Assembly: GCA_023014335.1 (NCBI GenBank)
Contig: JAECYW010000001.1
Coordinates: 62,001-126,000, forward strand
Source: Galerina marginata
Taxonomy: Eukaryota; Basidiomycota; Agaricomycetes; Agaricales; Galerinaceae
DNA: 64,000 nucleotides
Reading direction: 5' to 3'
Each line of letters opens with the position of its first letter. Within the stretch, counting starts at the first letter, position 1. The notes beneath the pieces are model-generated. The model did no database searches and was not told where the DNA came from. It worked only from the letters and a program-made list of their open reading frames with translations. The translations under genes were made by a program, and so were the position numbers. Shown here piece by piece: positions 1 through 14,478 of this stretch.

Positions 1-325
1 CAAGACAGCGACAACTTCAACCTGCAAGCTGACTTCTGCCTCCCACAAGCTGCCCCCACCTGCAATTGCCCTGGCAACCCCCAGCGACCCCTTGATTGAG
101 GCTGGTTGCCGTCCACAGGCATCCGCGAGCCCTCGCAAGGCTGGCGTCTTAGGCCGCTACAGCCCACCTGCACCTATCCACACAAACCTGCGAGCCCTGT
201 GTCCGGTCACCAGGCATCCACACCAGCACAACTATCACCCAGTGTCCCCAACTGCCTTTCATCCACCTCTCTGTTGAATGCTGTCACCATCGCTGTCGAC
301 AATTGAAGAAGCTTGCGAGCCCCGT
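1..325. other. Left-edge sequence without a supported gene
   Basis: Pyrimidine-rich sequence with short open frames but no recognisable protein. It runs directly into the LTR element at 326, so it is the left flank of that insertion; the matching right flank starts after 2663. It could be the interior of an older repeat, but nothing in it proves that. Confidence 0.4.
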
Positions 326-470
326 TGGAAAGGTAGGATCTGTCCCGAGCACGTCGCTAGCTCAAGGGAATGGCGTGGTATTGTGGTGAGGACCTTGTCT
401 GGCTACGGCTGTCTACACTAAACTAGGCGGTCATGTGCTGATCTGCTCCGGACCTGATCCCACTGTTCCA
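326..470 (-). repeat. 145-bp LTR, downstream (3') copy in element orientation
   Basis: Matches 2515-2659 at 143 of 145 positions. Both differences are CG in one copy versus TG in the other. It starts TGGAA and ends TTCCA and is preceded by CCGT. Confidence 0.85.
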
Positions 471-475
471 TCCGG

Positions 476-487
476 CCCCTTCCTTTT
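476..487 (-). other. Polypurine tract of the small LTR element
   Basis: On the minus strand this reads AAAAGGAAGGGG and lies 5 bases from the 3' LTR, the usual place for the plus-strand primer of an LTR retroelement. It supports the minus orientation of the element. Confidence 0.6.
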
Positions 488-941
488 GACGACGTCCTCG
501 TCGTCAGTACACGAAACGAGTAGTCTAAGAAAAACAAGTATGTAAAAACAAAAGCAAAAAGCATGAAAATGTAACTGTTTTCAAGAGCAGCAATGAGTCT
601 TGAGATAACAATGCAAGAAGGAAAATAAAAGTGGGAGCAACCAGAAATTACGAAGGAAGAATCCATCCCAAGGCTTTGAGAGCTTGGCTGAGGTTTGAGA
701 GCCGAGGATCAGATTCCCAGTTGAGATGAGGTGTCTTCTCCTGAGCGAGCTCCAAGGCTGAGTCCATAGGTTTACAATGAGGCTGTGTGAAACAAGGTGG
801 GTGTTCACGGCGATATTGGGTAGGTGGGTGAGGGAAATCAGCATGGAAAGCATTGCGATGACGGCGAGATTGACGAGGACGATGAGTATTTGAACGCTTA
901 ACGCGCTGTTGAAGTGAAGAGAATGGATTAGGGGATGATGA

Positions 942-2279
942 TCAAAGAACAGAGAGATTGCGCGGTTGATAAGACGGAGGTGGCAAAGACAATAAAATAG
1001 GTAATGATTCTGCATCTTCTGCCCAATCAAGACGTGTTGGGCTCGGGTGTATGTCCTCATAATGATTTAAAGGCAGAGGGGGCGTGGCGGTTTGAATCAG
1101 AACATCAGTATGAGAAGTGGTGACTGTCTGCGTTGAAGTGTCTGCGTAATGATTATTACATGGCTTGCATTGTGTTCCGGCTTCGTACGCGCGCTGCCAC
1201 ACAAGACCCAGAGGCGTGCTAGAGGGAGCAACGGAAGAGAGAGCACATAATAAATCAACGGACTCAGAGTTATTGAGAGGGTCGAAATCGGCTGATGTTT
1301 GGACAGAGGTATCAGTAGTCAATGTCTGAACAGTTTGAACTTCGGCAGCGACATTGGTTTGAGTGGGGATCGAGGAACTGGAGATAACACAGCTTTTGGT
1401 ATGGCCGGCAGCTTCCCATTGCTTGCGTTCTTGAATAATCCCATGAAATTGACCCTTTTCAAATCCGGTCTTCAGTATGTCAGAAAGCTGCAACCCGTCG
1501 ACAATTCGGGAACCTTCATCTTGTCCTTTTTTGAATGCACGACTCCAAATAGCTCCGAGGGCGGTGTCAGATGAGGCAGTAGTGGCGCGAGAGCATAGAC
1601 TGTCGATATTGTCAGTGCTTATAGGTGATTCAAAGTCAACAGCAATAACGGATTCGGTTTGGATCGCAAAGTCGATATGAGCAGTGGTGTGAGAAGTAGG
1701 GGATGGGGTTTGGATAGCAAGCGGTTGTGACTCGGTTTCATTTTGGATGCTTTCGTCAGAGAGATTTGTGGTTAGTGCAAGGCAGTGGGGTCCATGACCA
1801 AGAGAGGTCCATTCCGATCGCTCTTCAGCCCTTCCTTTCTCCATTCCGTGACAGTAAAAATCAATTTCTGCACGCTTAGCAGCTTCTTCAGCTTCCTCGA
1901 TACCCTTGGCCTTCCCTTTGAAATACATTTCCTTTCGGTCCTCATCACCATGTATATGCTCTTCAATTCGCCCTTTGTCACGACCTTCTTTGAATGCACG
2001 ATCCCAGAAAAGTTTCAAATTTTGCCCTTCTTGCGTAGAGGCTACGCCGTCGCAAAACCGAATAATGTCGTCTACATCGGCGAGTTCGAGGAATGTTTCG
2101 AAATCGATTAAATTGCTTGAGGAGTGCATTGGCGGTACCATTGTCGTGTCTGGTAACAATGACTGTAGATTGATTGTGGGTAGTGGTGCTATGGCTGGGG
2201 TTGGCTGGGGCATATTACTCGAGCTCGCAGTTGGCTTTTTCGGTTTTGCTTTGCCTGATTTCTTGTTGGATGGCGCCAT
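942..2279 (-). CDS. Modular repeat protein carried by the LTR element, function unknown
   Basis: An ORF of 445 codons from ATG 2277-2279, with no intron evident. After a Lys/Pro/Ser-rich N-terminus the protein has about three divergent copies of one module: a short hydrophobic stretch, a W-x-R-A-[FY] motif followed by a Gly-Lys pattern (FWDRAFKEGRDKG, IWSRAFKKGQDEG, VWQRAYEAG), then in copies one and two an ER-x-W-x3-GH segment with a nearby Cys, and a Thr/Gln-rich linker with repeated QT. The regular Gly spacing loosely recalls Yae1-type glycine-repeat helices; that is a weak inference. The in-frame TGA at 942-944 is odd: the same frame stays open to a TAA at 648-650, and the extra 98 codons end in a compact Trp/Leu-rich tail (NWESDPRLSNLSQALKALGW). 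CGA to TGA would explain the stop, so the gene is probably 3'-truncated or read through. It is the only gene in the element. Confidence 0.6.
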   Translation of the reverse strand: MAPSNKKSGKAKPKKPTASSSNMPQPTPAIAPLPTINLQSLLPDTTMVPPMHSSSNLIDFETFLELADVDDIIRFCDGVASTQEGQNLKLFWDRAFKEGRDKGRIEEHIHGDEDRKEMYFKGKAKGIEEAEEAAKRAEIDFYCHGMEKGRAEERSEWTSLGHGPHCLALTTNLSDESIQNETESQPLAIQTPSPTSHTTAHIDFAIQTESVIAVDFESPISTDNIDSLCSRATTASSDTALGAIWSRAFKKGQDEGSRIVDGLQLSDILKTGFEKGQFHGIIQERKQWEAAGHTKSCVISSSSIPTQTNVAAEVQTVQTLTTDTSVQTSADFDPLNNSESVDLLCALSSVAPSSTPLGLVWQRAYEAGTQCKPCNNHYADTSTQTVTTSHTDVLIQTATPPLPLNHYEDIHPSPTRLDWAEDAESLPILLSLPPPSYQPRNLSVL

Positions 2280-2487
2280 GTATTACTATGCGGGGTATGA
2301 AGTAGCTGCTGGGCTCGTAGTAGGCACTAGTGGGGTTAACCGGGGGCTCAAAGATGCGCAAAACGCAACCACATGGGCGCAAAGACTCGCAAGACACAAG
2401 ACTCAGACACAGAAAACTCGATAGGCACAAAAGCAGTTGATGAGCTGGCACGAAAATGAACTGGAAAGAAGCAACAGAGCGTGTTAA

Positions 2488-2512
2488 AGGTCGGATCACA
2501 CTCTCATCACCA
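2488..2512 (-). other. Candidate tRNA primer-binding site of the small LTR element
   Basis: Two bases inside the 5' LTR (element orientation) the minus strand reads TGGTGATGAGAG..., i.e. it starts with TGG, the complement of a tRNA CCA end. I could not match it to a specific tRNA. Confidence 0.4.
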
Positions 2513-2514
2513 GA

Positions 2515-2659
2515 TGGAAAGGTAGGATCTGTCCCGAGCACGTCGCTAGCTCAAGGGAATGGCGTGGTATTGTGGTGAGGACCTCGTCTGGCTACGGCTG
2601 TCTACACTAAACTAGGCGGTCACGTGCTGATCTGCTCCGGACCTGATCCCACTGTTCCA
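2515..2659 (-). repeat. 145-bp LTR, upstream (5') copy in element orientation
   Basis: Pairs with 326-470 and is followed by the CCGT target duplication at 2660-2663. This copy keeps CG at the two positions where the other copy has TG. Confidence 0.85.
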
Positions 2660-2691
2660 CCGTGCCACAGCTCCAGCTTACTTGAGCCAGC

Positions 2692-2874: not shown

Positions 2875-3009
2875 TTCATATCCAATAAGCCTAAGTTGCT
2901 TGCTAGCCCCTGCCAACCTAGTACTACCTGGGAGCAGAGGTGCACACATCAGGTGTAAGGTTTGAATACAGAACTTAGCCTTTCCAAGACATAGATCTTA
3001 GAGATCTAG

Positions 3010-3358
3010 TGTAAGGGGGAACTCCGCTTCCGATTTCCGAAGCTCCGATTTCCGGGTCCAACATTCCGGAGTTCCGCTCCGCTCCACCTGTCCGGACGTG
3101 ATTCCGAAGATTTCATTTTATTTATGGACTTTATTTTATTGTACCACTTTTATTATTTTGCATGTGACACTTGCCCTAAAGTGCCTTTTCTTATATATAC
3201 CACTCACCTAGCATTGGGTTCCCACTTTTCCCTCTTTGGTTCCCTGCTAGGTGCATTTAGATAGATTAGATTAGATCACCGCATTTAATATATTGACTTT
3301 GGTTCCCTGCTAGTTCTCCGATCCGTTTCCGGCATCCGGGACTTCAGTTGCCCTTACA
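3010..3358 (+). repeat. Solo LTR of the Ty3/gypsy family
   Basis: Closely matches the two LTRs of the complete element at 8473-14473, from TGTAAGGG to CCCTTACA, with one inserted G. It is flanked by perfect 5-bp repeats TCTAG (3005-3009 and 3359-3363), the signature of an insertion reduced to one LTR by recombination. Of its six substitutions against the 14126-14473 copy, five are CG to TG/CA. Confidence 0.9.
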
Positions 3359-3378
3359 TCTAGTTTGATCAAGTATGA

Positions 3379-5011
3379 CGGTATTTTCCGTTGGAAATTC
3401 CTATGTGCAAGTCCCAGGTCCTAGGTCCCTGTTCCCAGGGCTTGCATTATATAGGTGTGGTAGGGCCAAATATTAAATAAAATTAAATAAATTAAATAGG
3501 AAGAGAGGAGAGGAGAATAATTAATTAAGACCACCCACATTGAATTAAATCTCTAAGAATTTGAGAATCCCCTTGCAAGGTCTCGGGAATACAAGACACA
3601 AAATAGGACATTTTTTGCGGGTGCGCTTTGCCCGCAGAGACTGATAAACTTTGTCAGCATGGCAAAATGTATCAAATATGTACAATTTTTCTCTTGCGCT
3701 TTGTGCCTCTATCAATGTTTGTGCTTCCTTAAAATGTGTATCTTGTGCACTTCTGTTTCCCTGCTTTTAAAATTAAATATAAAGCCTTTGTTCTGATTTA
3801 AAAAAATTCTTGTCTCTGGTGAAATGGTCAAAACACGGGTATAACCTTTTTTTTTGGGGCGCGCTTCGCGTGCAGCTGCTCAGTTTAAGGAGTCTAGATG
3901 TCATATTCAGTACTCCCAAGTACTCTTGAAAAATTTCTCTTCTTAAATATCTGAGCTGTTGTTGACACATCAAGTGATAAATTAGGTGCACAAAATTCTC
4001 AGAAATTCTCTACTGGTGGCTCACAGATTCTTCCAAAAATTCCCATTTTTTTGTATACAGCAGTTAATTAGATTATCATTCATTTGGGTGATTAGAATTT
4101 TTGAATACTCGTGTCTTGCATTCGGGAATGCTCCAACACGATAGAATTGATGCAGAGGGATGGTCATGTGACTGCACCTCCATGTGAACTATATCAATTT
4201 CAAACTCAGTTAAGTCTTAGTTGGCCCACACCTATTGAATGTGAGCCCCATCCCAGGATCCCGGGTGATCTGGACCAAACAATGATCCTTATTCGGCACG
4301 AAAATACCAAAATTGGTCATTCGGCTGAACTTGCGGAGCGAGCTGAATGGGAAGGTGCGATTTGGGCCAAAACGGATCCCTCTGCCGTTGTCAAATCTTG
4401 ATTTAAGTTGAATGCAATTTTTATTATCTCTTACCTACAATGATACCCCTATGCACCGAATAATTTACTACTATTTCAGTCTCTGCTTACTTTTCCCAAT
4501 TGAATTTGAGCACACACTGGCATACAGTACTTATGTAAGTGCATGAATTGTATCGGAATTCCTGCGTGAAAATAATAAGCGAATCTACACGACTGAGGTC
4601 TAAAAAATTTGAGTGAATTACAATTGTCCTTAGATAAATATGAGTTCACAGTCATGGAGGATGGTGTCGCAGCTGGGACAAATTCTGGTCATGTCCAAAA
4701 AAAGATTGACAAAAATGGGACAGCAGAAGCACTACAGAGAGTACATAAATTTATTATATCAGAAAATCTCCAGAATACAAAGTAGAGAATATATATAGAT
4801 TATTTATGTCACCTTTTGTTGGGTCTTTTGTGAGAGGCAAGCAAATATGGGCTGAGGGATTGCCGGTAAGACCTGGGAACTAGGACCTGGGATCAAAAAC
4901 ATACGCACGTGACAGGTTCCTGGCTAATGAAGTTTGGAATCTTGCAATTTGAGAGGGAACTGGGACCTGGGACCACATAAAAAGTTGAGTCCCACAATTT
5001 CCAATGGAAAA
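3379..5011. repeat. Gene-free AT-rich stretch with divergent inverted arms
   Basis: The left arm (about 3379-3440) and the right arm (about 4865-5011) share, in opposite orientation, TATTTTCC[GA]TTGGAAATT and CCCAGGTCCTAG-type motifs. This could be a decayed DNA transposon of about 1.6 kb. Small GC hairpins occur at 3617-3635 and near 3857-3875. No transposase-like frame survives. The arms are too divergent to define exact ends. Confidence 0.3.
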
Positions 5012-8472: not shown

Positions 8473-8820
8473 TGTAAGGGGAACTCTGCTTCTGATTTCC
8501 GAAGCTCCGATTTCCGGGTCCGACATTCCGGAGTTCCGCTCCGCTCCACCTGTCCGGACGTGATTCCGAAGATTTCATTTTATTTATGGACTTTATTTTA
8601 TCGTACCACTTTTATTATTTTGCATGCGACACTTGCCCTAAAGTGCCTTTTCTTATATATACCGCTCACCTAGCATTGGGTTCCCACTTTTCCCTCTTTG
8701 GTTCCCTGCTAGGTGCGTTTAGATAGATTAGATTAGATCACCGCATTTAATATATTGACTTTGGTTCCCTGCTAGTTCTCCGATCCGTTTCCGGCATCCT
8801 GGACTTCAGTTGCCCTTACA
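8473..8820 (+). repeat. 5' LTR of the Ty3/gypsy element
   Basis: 348 bp, TGTAAGGG...CCCTTACA. It differs from the 3' LTR at four sites; here T8487, T8493 and T8800 replace C of a CpG. It contains the promoter described separately. Confidence 0.93.
8654..8695 (+). promoter_or_regulatory. TATA box and predicted transcript start in the 5' LTR
   Basis: TATATATA at 8654-8661 lies about 30 bases upstream of CACTTTTCCCT (8685-8695). That 11-mer is the exact complement of bases 8823-8833 just after the LTR, so 8685 is the natural candidate for the RNA 5' end and the start of the R region. The start site is inferred, not measured. Confidence 0.55.
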
Positions 8821-8822
8821 GT

Positions 8823-8833
8823 AGGGAAAAGTG
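8823..8833 (+). other. Self-priming primer-binding site
   Basis: AGGGAAAAGTG begins two bases after the 5' LTR and is perfectly complementary to CACTTTTCCCT inside the LTR (8685-8695). There is no TGG-starting tRNA primer site here. The layout matches the self-priming known for the fission yeast element Tf1, where the first 11 bases of the mRNA fold back onto the primer site. Confidence 0.65.
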
Positions 8834-8978
8834 CCCTCGGAGGACCGATTCCGAAGCCCGAAATTGCATTCCGTCTTTCCGAAGCATTCCGCCTTTCCGG
8901 ACTTTTCAATTTCCGCTCCAAAATCCCTCCTCACCCCGGAAATTCCGCATTTCCGACGTTTTTGGCCATTTCATCAAC

Positions 8979-11900
8979 ATGTCTTCCGGAGATTGGATCG
9001 CCGCCCTTGAGAGTGCCTTAAACGCGCTGCGGAGTGAAGGGGAACACACCCAGACACTCCTACGACAATTCCTTTCCCATCTCAGATGTTCGGACCCCCC
9101 AGCCATTGTAACAACACCTGTAACACCATCCATTCCCCCTCCGCGTGTTTCCGAGTTTCCAGACGATTCCGCGTTTCCAAGCGCTGTTCTGGCTCCACAT
9201 GGCTCTGATTCCACATCCCTTCCGCCCCTGGGCATTCCCAAAGATTCAGAACTTTCTGAACTTCAGAAATCTGCTCTCCCCGCTCCCCACTCCCGAAATT
9301 TGGATTTTCCCGAATTCCGGAGTGCGTCTCAACCCGAGGCAGAGTGCCCAGGCTTCCGGTTCCCGGTTCCGAAATTTCGGAACTTTACTCCGCTTCGACC
9401 CGGAGTTCCGCCGGATTTCTACAGAGACCGCTCCTTAGGCAGATCCTTTCTTTTCACCTGCCGAACCTATATTCGTCTCGTTCCAACTGCTTTTCTGGAC
9501 GTGACTGTACAAATACTTTGGGTTCTTTCTTTTATGAAATCAGGACGCGCGTTCCGCTGGGCGGAGCGGAAACTAGCATTAGAACTAACGGAAGGATTTC
9601 CATGGACTAACTAGGCAGAATTCGAGAGCAATTTCCGGTACAACTTCACTCCAGCTCACGCTGCGGCGACCGCCATTAATATTCTGGAAGGGTCAGCATA
9701 CTTCCAGCAAGGTCGCTTGGTGGATGACTACCTGGATGAGTTCCTGGATCTTGTGCACGATCCGCAGTACACCGACCCCCGTACGATTGTGGTAAAATTC
9801 CGATGAGGGCTAGCTCAACGCATTTCTGTGGTTCTTAACGGAATTGTGAGCGGCAGGCCCTCCGACGTGGATCCTGATGGGTGGTACCAATTGGCCGCTC
9901 AACTTGACCAAAATCAACGGGCGGATGAGGCTTTCCTAGCTTCCTACTCTCCAGACCCACTCCCTGCTCCGACACCTGCTCTCCCGAGTCCCCTTCTCAG
10001 CCAACCATTGGCTGTTGAAAAACTTGAGGAGCAGAATTTTGATGTCCATCATATGAATCAGGTTGAGCTGCGGAAAGGTTTAGAGGATTGGTTGTCCAAG
10101 CTGAGCCGTATAGCGGAGGACAAGTCAAAGGAGCTGGAAGAAATTCCAGTGAAGCGGAAAATGGTGCGCGCCTTGCCGCGGGTGGTTCAGTCTTCCCCGC
10201 TGCCTTCCAAAAATCGCTATTCAGTCCTCGAGGTAGACTCAGTCCCAGAGCCTACCGAAGAACTGATAAGCATTGAGGATTTGCCACCGCCGCCTCCTAA
10301 AGCGACAACTCCTCCCAAGGCCCAGACTCCGCGACGTGCTAAATGGGAGAAACGGATGCATGACCGGTTGGTTATTAACTCGATGAGCCCTGGACCAACC
10401 TCCCTTATTCTTCCGGTGCACCTCAAAAGCACGGATACTATGGATGAGGTTGGAGCGGATGCTCTCGGTGACACTGGCGCCACTGGAGATTTCATTGACG
10501 AGGACTACGTCAAGGAATGTAACCTCCCCACTCGGAATCTATCACAGCCAATTCCCGTTTATAATGTGGATGGATCTCTGAATGAGGCTGGTTTAATCTC
10601 CAAGGTGGTAGATGTGCTCATGACCTATCAGACGCATTCCGAGCGTATCCTTCTTGCTGTCACCAAACTTGGGAAGCAAAAGGTTATCTTGGGTTACACT
10701 TGGTTTAAAAAGCACAACCCAGACATTGACTTCACAACGGGTACTGTGAAAATGACCAAGTGTTCCCCCAGGTGCTGCTCGGGCTGTTGGACTGAAATCC
10801 GGGAGGAACGCAAAGTCCAGAAGGCAATCATGCACCATATCAATGCTTGCAAAATGGGCAATCTCCCAGACTTGGTTGATGATCATGAGGATGATGAGGA
10901 AGATGATGACAAGCCAGTTCCGTCTTCTTCTCCCTCTCCAGAGGATCCTGCTCTTGAAGAAGGTGACCGCATCTTTGCTACTGGGCTTTTACCAGAAGCA
11001 GAGCACATCCGCGCTGGTTCAACTATTTCCCAGCGCCTTGCGGAAGCCTTCAAGAAGAACTCTGAGCCCACGGACTTTGATAAGCACGTTCCTGAGCACC
11101 TCAAGGACTTCCATTCGGTGTTTTCCAAAGAGTCGTTTGATAACCTTCCTGAGCACAAGCCCTGAGACCATGCAGTTGAACTTATAGCTGATGCCACACC
11201 ACGCAGCTGCAAGGTCTACCTGCTTGCGGTCTCAGAGCAGAAGGAACTCGACGCTTTCATCAAGGAAAACCTGGATTCGGGTTGCATCCGTCCTTCCAAG
11301 TCCCCCATGGCATCTCCCGTCTTCTTTATCAAGAAGAAGGATGGTTCTCTCCGCCTTGTCCAGGACTACCGCGCACTCAATGCTATGACGGTGAAAAATA
11401 AGTACCCACTCCCACTCATTTCAGAGTTGATCAATAAACTCTGAGGTGCAAAGTACTTCACCAAGCTTGATGTCCGCTGGGGTTTTAATAATGTCCGGAT
11501 GAAGGAAGGAGATGAGTGGAAGGCTGCTTTCCGGACCAACCGTGGATTGTTCAAACCGCTCGTCATGTTCTTTGGGCTCACCAATAGTCCTGCCACATTC
11601 CAGACAATGATGAACGACATCTTTGAGGATTTAATCTCAGAAGGTGTTGTAGTCGTGTACCTCGACGACATCCTCATCTTTACGGAAACGCTGGAAGAAC
11701 ACCGGAAGGTCACTTGAAGAGTACTTGAGCTCCTGGAAAAGCACAAGCTCTACCTCTGGCCGGATAAATGCGAGTTTGAACAGACCACAGTGGAGTACCT
11801 TGGAGTTATCATTTCCCATAACTCTGTGGCTATGGACCCAGTCAAGGTGGCAGGAGTTGCGGAATGGCCAGAACCCAAGAACAAGAAAGAAGTACAGTCC

Positions 11901-14216
11901 TTCCTGGGCTTTACCAATTTCTATCAAAGGTTCATCCGCGACTTCTCGGAGCATGCGCGCCCGCTCTTTGATCTTACAAAGAACAACGTGAAATGGTCTT
12001 GGGGAACGGATCAGCAGGCTGCCTTCGATAAGCTCAAGCAGTCTGTTACTTCTTCCCTGGTTCTCATGTCCCCTGACTCCACCCGTCCATTCCGCGTTGA
12101 GGCCGACAGCTCTGATTTTGCAACTGGAGCTGTACTGTCTCAGGTCTCCCCGGATGATGACAAGTGGCACCCTGTTGCGTTCTACTCCAAGTCCCTGTCC
12201 CCTGTCGAGTGGAACTATGAAATTCACAACAAGGAAATGCTTGCTATCATCTGCTCTTTACAAGAGTGGAGGCATTTCCTTGAAGGCGCAGAACACCAGT
12301 TCGAGATCTGGACGGATCATAAGAACTTGGAGTATTTCATGACCGCAAAACAACTCAACCGCTGTCAAGCTCGCTGGTCCCTGGTCCTTGCCCGGTTTGA
12401 CTTCCTTATGCACCACAAACCAGGCCGGACTATGGGAAAGCCGGATGCACTATCTCAAAGAGCAGATCATGGCACTGGATCAGAGGATAATTCCAATATC
12501 ACTCTTCTGACTCCAAAGCTCTTTGTGATTTGTGCTCTAGAGGCAGTTGAGGTTGTGGGCGCTGAGGTTGATATCCTCCGTGATATCCGCAAAGGTGTCA
12601 AAGGTCCTATTAAGGAGGAACCAGTGGCAAAGGCAGTTCAAGCGCTTAGGAAAACCTCCGCTTGCTCTATCCACTTTAGTGAATGGTCTGAGCGCGATGG
12701 TCTCCTATACTTCCGAGGCAAGATCTATGTTCCACTTAACTCAGATCTCCGCCGGTGCATTGTCTCCCTCTGCCATGATACTTGGATTGCTGGGCATGCT
12801 GGACGGTTTAAGACCTTGGAAATGGTTTCACGGAATTATTGGTGGCCAAACATGTCAAGATATGTTGGCCGGTATGTTGCTACCTGCGATATGTGCCTCC
12901 GAACCAAGGTCCAACACCGTCTACCATCTGGTGAACTTGTTCCTCTCCCAGTCCCCTCTGACCATTGGCACACTATTAGCATGGACTTCATTGTCGAGCT
13001 TCCGGACTCAGCAGGATACGACGCGATCATGGTTGTTGTGGACAGTGCTGGTAAGCGGGGTCACTTTGTTGAGACCACCACTACTATTACCGCTGCTGGA
13101 GCTGCCCAACTCTTCCTGAAGCATGTCTGGAAGCTCCACGGACTACCCTGGAAAGTTGTCTCCGACCGCGGCTCCCAGTTCATTGCCGAGTTCATGAAGG
13201 AGCTGTACCGCCTCTTAGGAATTCAGCTTGCTCCGTCAACTTCCTACCATCCGCAGACCGACGGCCAGACAGAGCGTGTCAACCAGGAATTGGAACAGTA
13301 CATCCGAGTCTTTGTCAGTGAACATCAAGATGACTGGCAAGGACTACTCCCACTTGCTGAGTTTGCATATAATAACCATGTGCACTCCTCAACTCAGCAT
13401 ACTCCATTCCTACTGGACACCGGACGGCATCCGCGGATGGGTTTTGAGCCTCATCAGCCTCTGTCTAAGCTGGAAGCAGTCAACGAGTTCACTCAGTGGA
13501 TGAAGGACACTTTGGAGGAAGCCAAGGCAGCTCTAACCAAGGCTAAAGACGATATGGCTAGATATTATAATCAGCGGCGAACACCAGCCCCGGTGTTCAA
13601 GGCTGGAGATAAGGTCTATTTGGATGCTAGCGACATTCAGACAACTCGCCCATCCAAGAAGTTTGCTCATTGCCGCCTAGGTCCTTACTTGGTTGAAAGG
13701 AGAATTGGACTTAACGCCTATCGACTTCGCCTTCCAGTCTCTCTTAAGCGCCTCCATCCAGTCTTCAACGTGATCAAGCTGACACCTGCCCCTGATGATC
13801 CTATCCCAGGAAGGAGAGCTGCACCACCACCACCGCCAGAGCTTATTGATGGGGAAGAACACTATGAAGTAGAGGAAATTCTCAACAGCCGCATGTTCTG
13901 CTGAAAGCTCCAGTACTTGATCAAATGGGAAGGCTATGGTCCAGAGGATAATTCTTGGGAGTATAAGGATAATATTAGTGCTCCTGAGCTTGTCACCAGA
14001 TTCCACCAGCAGAACCCAGGAGCACCGCAACAAATCTGTGCCTTAGCATTTGGCTCAATTCCTTTCCGACCTATCACCAGTCTTCCTATCGCATCGAGGC
14101 GATGCTCATTTGAGGGGGGGGTAATTGTAAGGGGAACTCCGCTTCCGATTTCCGAAGCTCCGATTTCCGGGTCCGACATTCCGGAGTTCCGCTCCGCTCC
14201 ACCTGTCCGGACGTGA
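8979..14216 (+). pseudogene. Gag-Pol polyprotein of the Ty3/gypsy chromovirus, six in-frame stops
   Basis: One frame runs from ATG 8979 to TGA 14214-14216, ending inside the 3' LTR (1,746 codons), interrupted by stops at 9612 (TAG), 9804, 11163, 11442, 11715 and 13902 (all TGA). No frameshift is needed. Gag occupies the first part; no CCHC zinc knuckle is visible. A protease with D-T-G (ALGDTGATG) lies near 10470. Reverse transcriptase has YLDD at 11658-11669. RNase H follows ([14 protein letters not shown] near 12100). Integrase has an HHCC zinc region (about 12775-12905) and core blocks MDFI, SDRGSQF and [10 protein letters not shown] chromodomain (YEVEEIL ... LIKWEGYG) is at 13864-14010, split by the last stop. 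In this family Gag-Pol is cleaved by its own protease; this copy cannot make it. Four stops (9804, 11442, 11715, 13902) stand where Arg CGA would fit. Confidence 0.92.
14112..14121 (+). other. Polypurine tract of the Ty3/gypsy element
   Basis: GAGGGGGGGG four bases before the 3' LTR, the usual position of the plus-strand DNA primer. Confidence 0.7.
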
Positions 14217-14473
14217 TTCCGAAGATTTCATTTTATTTATGGACTTTATTTTATCGTACCACTTTTATTATTTTGCATGCGACACTTGCCCTAAAGTGCC
14301 TTTTCTTATATATACCGCTCACCTAGCATTGGGTTCCCACTTTTCCCTCTTTGGTTCCCTGCTAGGTGCGTTTAGATAGATTAGATTAGATCACCACATT
14401 TAATATATTGACTTTGGTTCCCTGCTAGTTCTCCGATCCGTTTCCGGCATCCCGGACTTCAGTTGCCCTTACA
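14126..14473 (+). repeat. 3' LTR of the Ty3/gypsy element
   Basis: 348 bp, followed by CCTAC, the target duplication. A14396 replaces G of a CpG that is intact in the 5' LTR; the other three differences are C here and T in the 5' copy. Confidence 0.93.
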
Positions 14474-14478
14474 CCTAC

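Follow-up and report, generated by a model that had tools for sequence, protein, structure and literature searches.

A 2.3-kb Galerina marginata LTR retrotransposon with its own modular protein and a likely Ty3/gypsy partner

The element at 326..2659 and its copies

We analyzed a 64,000-nucleotide stretch of the Galerina marginata genome (contig JAECYW010000001.1, positions 62,001 to 126,000; here called the window), in which a long terminal repeat (LTR) retrotransposon of 2334 bp lies at positions 326 to 2659. All of its features are oriented on the minus strand, and they are listed here from 5' to 3' in the sense of the element.

2660..2663, unstranded: target site duplication (TSD) CCGT, 5' side in the minus-strand sense
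2515..2659, minus strand: 5' LTR, 145 bp
2490..2512, minus strand: primer-binding site (PBS), compared with a tRNA-Leu 3' end plus CCA: 14 nt exact, 20/23 complementary
942..2279, minus strand: open reading frame (ORF) of 445 amino acids, uninterrupted in the element sense, ended early by an in-frame stop relative to the C10 copy
660..941, minus strand: untranslated stretch 3' of the stop, equivalent to the conserved C-terminus of the sister protein
488..505, minus strand: hairpin (loop AGGA) 5' of the polypurine tract
476..487, minus strand: polypurine tract AAAAGGAAGGGG, followed by CCGGA and then the 3' LTR
326..470, minus strand: 3' LTR, 145 bp
322..325, unstranded: TSD CCGT, 3' side

The two LTRs are identical at 143 of 145 positions (two differences) and end in TGGAA...TTCCA, of the TG...CA type. 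The PBS core, TGGTGATGAGAGTG, starts with TGG and lies at 2499-2512, 2 nt past the 5' LTR, and a leader sits between the PBS and the ORF. TGGTGATGAGAGTG is the exact complement, over 14 nt, of the 3' end plus CCA in four tRNA genes; over 23 nt, complementarity reaches 20 positions in the window copy and 21 in the C10 copy. A pattern for this tRNA end gave seven genome matches, four of them with the identical end, compared with one match for the reversed control, and three of these four genes appear in the Rfam tRNA list. Read by eye, the primer tRNA is an intron-bearing Leu(AAG), which ARAGORN does not call. The stem-loop at 488-505 reads GACGACG-AGGA-CGTCGTC. Pfam finds no polymerase domain in the ORF. 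Thus, with LTRs, a TSD of fixed length, and a PBS and polypurine tract in one orientation, the feature is a non-autonomous LTR retrotransposon. An initial annotation of the locus had described these same parts (145-bp repeats, CCGT duplication, purine tract, TGG primer-like site, single orientation and no polymerase gene), and all of them were borne out.

To place the element among its relatives, we searched a genome of 69.3 Mb in 43 contigs. The window LTR had seven matches: the pair in the window, the pair of the C10 copy, two solo LTRs on C40, and a C22 copy that has decayed. All four complete sites carry 4-bp TSDs (CCGT, ATGC, ATAT, and GTAG). The genome search with LTR and protein that the initial annotation had recommended therefore yielded further dispersed copies with duplications of their own. 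The LTR/PBS junction of this family, with up to 3 mismatches allowed, occurs at five places in the 69.3 Mb, three in the window family and two on C33, and at none with the reversed control. Because of these five places against zero, and because the LTR recurs with its own 4-bp TSDs, the LTR/PBS structure is not a product of chance.

In the C10 copy, the two LTRs are identical (145/145); gaps excluded, this copy matches the window copy at 2180 of 2291 aligned bases. Its ORF encodes 529 amino acids, and the frame runs 84 codons beyond the in-frame stop of the window ORF. Because of that stop, the 445-amino-acid ORF, which the initial annotation took to fill the interior as one long frame, is real but is not the full protein, and the window copy is slightly decayed. 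The C10 leader contains a 175-bp segment (L055, about 3499-3673) that neither the window copy nor the C22 copy has. It is bounded by CACTG...CAGTG, shows a TTT duplication, and resembles a miniature transposon of the CACTA type that sits within the retroelement.

A protein family carried by two LTR families

The window ORF is made up of a basic N-terminus, a DFETF/NLKLFW module, a Gx3-rich helix, and eight [TSVI]QT motifs. Database searches gave 81 homologues in all, 79 with E < 0.01, and those that are named come from Hebeloma, Galerina, Flammula, Mycena, and Hericium. Twenty-eight homologues show 36-64% identity, with E at most 6.7e-23. Using a divergent homologue, P0028, as the query, we found nine further loci in the genome besides the window and C10 copies. 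All six that were read with their flanks sit between identical LTR pairs, two more have an LTR/PBS junction nearby at a fitting distance, and the remaining match, at C28:334069, is weak (E 0.05) and contains a stop.

These loci define a second LTR family. Its LTR/PBS junction pattern occurs at 15 places (reversed control, 0), of which 10 were read, nine as complete elements and one, on C11, in part. The nine complete elements are about 1.98-2.50 kb long, their LTR pairs (206-235 bp) show 0 mismatches in 1992 bp, and each has a 4-bp TSD (CCGC, CCGT, ACGT three times, TCAC, ATGT, ACGG, and CCGG); all nine are recent insertions. Over both families, 11 coding copies were read whole, and 10 of these have identical LTR pairs. 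The ORF lies in one long frame in seven of the nine elements and is split over two overlapping frames in those on C1 and C15; in the partly read C11 element, the frame is broken by repeats. Eight of 15 four-base target sites fit the pattern xCGx (ACGT three times, CCGT twice, CCGC, ACGG, and CCGG), a bias that may reflect an integrase preference. A hairpin, ATGCAACG-AGGA-CGTTGCAT, precedes the purine tract in all nine elements, with one base different in C25 and C2; the C10 copy of the window family has a hairpin there as well. Its stem sequence varies between the families, while the loop and shape are preserved, and it is possibly a packaging or priming signal.

Two LTR families of one genome thus bear ORFs with a common conserved C-terminal part. 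This finding supports, and widens, the suggestion of the initial annotation that the element belongs to a new class of gene-carrying non-autonomous retroelements. Among homologues with a named source, those closest to the second-family ORF come from Galerina marginata itself (74-82% identity). At least four second-family ORFs (C3, C39, C10b, and C43) have the capsid lobe of Gag at the N-terminus, which was not seen in the C25, C2, and C10c ORFs with the pattern used. Pfam gave no Gag match in the second-family ORFs tested, including those with the lobe, and reported no zinc knuckle in the tested ORFs. The protein is modular, and its N-terminal modules vary among members.

Next, we compared substitutions in the ORF. 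The ratio of nonsynonymous to synonymous substitution rates (dN/dS) by NG86 is 0.30 for the window versus the C10 copy (YN00, 0.50; LWL85, 0.27) and 0.20-0.26 for six pairs of capsid-type ORFs. Three more distant ORF pairs gave 0.25-0.28, with dS saturated. When substitution was simulated 2000 times with its types retained, amino acid changes were as scarce as between the window and C10 copies in 4 runs. Taken together, these substitution patterns show purifying selection on the ORF.

The Yae1 N-terminal label, PF09811, is attached to 7 of the 45 homologues of one search. A Gx3-rich helix is common to PF09811 proteins and the window ORF; however, the window ORF has no Pfam match to this family, and two homologues match it below the cut-off. 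With no PF09811 match above the cut-off, we rejected Yae1 family membership, and the resemblance is probably convergent. Among Mycena and Hericium proteins with the Yae1 label, P0064, P0070, P0074, P0076-P0079, and P0081 match an element ORF, and the sequences of P0064, P0070, P0074, and P0078 contain the ORF's C-terminal motifs. These last four may be mis-annotated retroelement genes.

A likely partner and a possible role for the protein

Two Ty3/gypsy elements on C33, of 6174 and 6159 bp, have 124-bp LTRs that are identical within each element and TSDs of CCCG and CCCT. A domain search showed a CCHC knuckle in the Gag of copy A and, in the 1427-amino-acid Pol frame of copy B, domains for reverse transcriptase, RNase H, and integrase. 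The C33 and window elements have in common the LTR start (42 bp, 86%), the LTR end plus PBS (53 bp, 94%), and the hairpin with the purine tract and U3 start (77 bp, 86%); the middle of the LTR gives no match between them. All four genome matches of the C33 LTR belong to these two copies, and the purine-tract/LTR junction occurs at four genome places, namely, the window, C10, and the two C33 elements. The predicted hairpin has a shorter stem in C33 copy A and is not in the lowest-energy fold of copy B. Because the C33 and window elements share cis signals, we infer that the window family is mobilized in trans by a C33-type partner, and the C33 elements are likely that partner. The window element thus has no polymerase of its own and an autonomous relative with matching cis signals, a full-length Ty3/gypsy element with the similar LTR ends and primer site that the initial annotation had advised looking for.

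For the second family, a frame on C7 is of the Gag type: it shares 34% identity with the C33 Gags, and Pfam scores it against Retrotrans_gag at E 5e-4, short of the cut-off. The primer site upstream of this frame has 2 mismatches to the second-family site. The C7 LTR did not align with the second-family LTRs, and the C7 element is only a candidate partner. The window ORF had no match in the partner Gags, with the fold search uninformative, and the conserved C-terminus had no match in the partners' Gag and Pol.

The QT motifs of the ORF resemble anchors for the dynein light chain LC8. In 500 shuffles, the mean number of [TSVI]QT triplets was 0.58 and none reached the eight of the window ORF, most of which fall in low-confidence parts of the structure model. 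One class of LC8 motif is GIQVD-like, and we used a wider pattern that adds this class. With it, the 81 homologues contain 194 motifs together, compared with 29.4 expected; for 46 of them, no more than 25 in 500 shuffles gave at least the observed number, and 18 homologues lack the motif. Second-family ORFs have one to three motifs each, which is a weak signal. As controls, the partner Gag of copy A has two motifs (67 of 500 shuffles reach 2), and the C7 Gag and Pol have none. The genome has one match for an LC8-type dynein light chain gene. LC8 ligands are described as mostly anchored by TQT or its variants, and many TQT peptides are described as nonbinding (PMC6607443, PMC5963919). The window ORF has the sequence features of a putative LC8 client, several QT anchors in probably disordered regions, which suggests a possible LC8-binding role.

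Elsewhere in the window, a pair of direct repeats (about 350 bp, 98.9% identical) bounds 8473-14477 and encloses long frames at 9807-11162 and 11718-13901. The latter frame looks reverse transcriptase-like by eye, pointing to another LTR retrotransposon. A single related repeat at 3006-3362 appears to be a lone LTR, adjoining the element studied here.

Taken together, we consider it probable that the 2334-bp element is a non-autonomous LTR retrotransposon from a wider lineage of small LTR elements, each with its own protein, and that its RNA is copied by a C33-type partner while its product is a Gag-related adaptor. The LTR would drive transcription of the element RNA, tRNA-Leu would serve as primer, and the partner would do the copying and integration in trans. 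The ORF product would be an element-specific adaptor that raises the odds of its own RNA entering partner particles or reaching the nucleus, and its QT motifs probably bind host LC8, which would dimerize or link the product. The capsid lobe would have been lost from, or never present in, the window lineage. A broader proposal, which we put forward tentatively, is that of a satellite-like LTR lineage in mushrooms whose Gag-derived, LC8-binding adaptor swaps N-terminal modules, along with LTR and primer signals, to ride different Ty3/gypsy particles, comparable to satellite and helper viruses.

Alternatively, the element's own protein could act on expression or silencing, as a nuclear regulator or anti-silencing factor, and not in packaging or transport. 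The basic N-termini and the long low-confidence, probably disordered regions would suit such a role, and there is a precedent in that some extra ORFs of plant retrotransposons are reported to yield nuclear proteins (PMC7264820). However, the Gag capsid lobe in some members fits particles better, and we regard this alternative as unlikely. It is improbable that the protein is a capsid-fragment restriction factor limiting the autonomous partner, like yeast Ty1 p22. The second family does have a single capsid lobe, the fold matches include Ty1 p22 structures, and the C33 partner has just two copies; however, the window family is without the lobe, restricting its sole partner would hurt the element itself, and all nine second-family elements read whole inserted recently.

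Less probable again is a host gene captured once by an LTR element, by transduction as in maize Bs1, and carried as a mere passenger. Such a gene would explain why the window ORF is not a recognized Gag or polymerase and why annotations of named fungi treat its homologues as ordinary hypothetical proteins. However, the window protein search returned, at E <= 0.01, its own three element copies only, and all six P0028 loci read lie between identical LTRs, with a junction at two more. The mobilized host gene of the initial annotation thus found no backing: no LTR-free copy was seen among the loci examined, the weak C28 match aside, in searches that score the best candidates only and could miss a distant host copy. 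The uninterrupted frames and the purifying selection also argue against a passenger. Finally, tandem or satellite duplication with a chance or decaying ORF, which the initial annotation had named as refuting its reading and which would suit the low copy number of the window family, is already refuted by dispersed copies with distinct flanks and separate 4-bp TSDs at all four complete sites, the PBS and polypurine tract, the 28 homologues, and the dN/dS of 0.30.

Comparison with known systems

Of the known systems, the TR-GAG element of plants comes closest; it is described as a non-autonomous LTR element with a single Gag ORF and reported to transpose in Arabidopsis (PMC8704663). The elements studied here likewise have LTRs, one ORF, and an autonomous relative, and the second family, through the capsid lobe in at least four of its ORFs, qualifies as TR-GAG, with a single ORF containing a Gag domain. 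In contrast to TR-GAG as described there, the C-terminus here has no counterpart in the partners' proteins, the N-terminal modules vary, the tested ORFs have no zinc knuckle, the ORF family spans LTR families, and no Gag domain could be detected in the window family. The lineage is best read as TR-GAG-like non-autonomous elements with a modular adaptor protein of their own.

Bs1 and other gene-transducing LTR elements, as described in PMC7264820, also have a non-retroviral-looking gene between LTRs. They differ from the present ORF family, which occurs in two LTR families and, at the protein level, several fungal genera, is under purifying selection, and has no recognizable host source gene outside the elements among the loci examined, C28 aside; we therefore regard transduction of the Bs1 type as improbable.

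Terminal-repeat retrotransposons in miniature (TRIMs) have an internal domain without coding capacity, and large retrotransposon derivatives (LARDs) are long (over about 4 kb) with a non-coding interior. A length of 2334 bp with a 445-amino-acid ORF under selection rules out the former, and an element that is 2.3 kb and coding is not the latter. TRIMs are likewise small, non-autonomous LTR elements with a PBS and polypurine tract and are reported in some Agaricomycetes, the fungal Helenus included, but their internal domain is short, and Helenus is described with tRNA-like LTRs and 5-bp TSDs in fungi (PMC10886601). LARDs, also LTR-element derivatives, are reported in another agaric, Laccaria bicolor (PMC3411680). 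An LC8 interaction, with transport proposed, has been reported for the Gags of Sireviruses and foamy virus (PMC2829016, PMC3705263); those are Gags of autonomous elements, whereas the window ORF is a putative LC8 ligand by its motifs.

We found no earlier report of such coding elements in the open-licence literature searched. Descriptions of small non-autonomous LTR elements usually give them no protein. In the present genome, two LTR families that include very recent insertions both bear a modular protein under selection. These results suggest that some mushroom genes labeled hypothetical or Yae1-like are retroelement ORFs. For the window family, full-length partners with matching ends and primer site are known, so that what a passenger gains from its protein can be tested. 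The relatives of this gene in other small elements that moved recently suggest that such passengers of larger retrotransposons supply a helper protein themselves.
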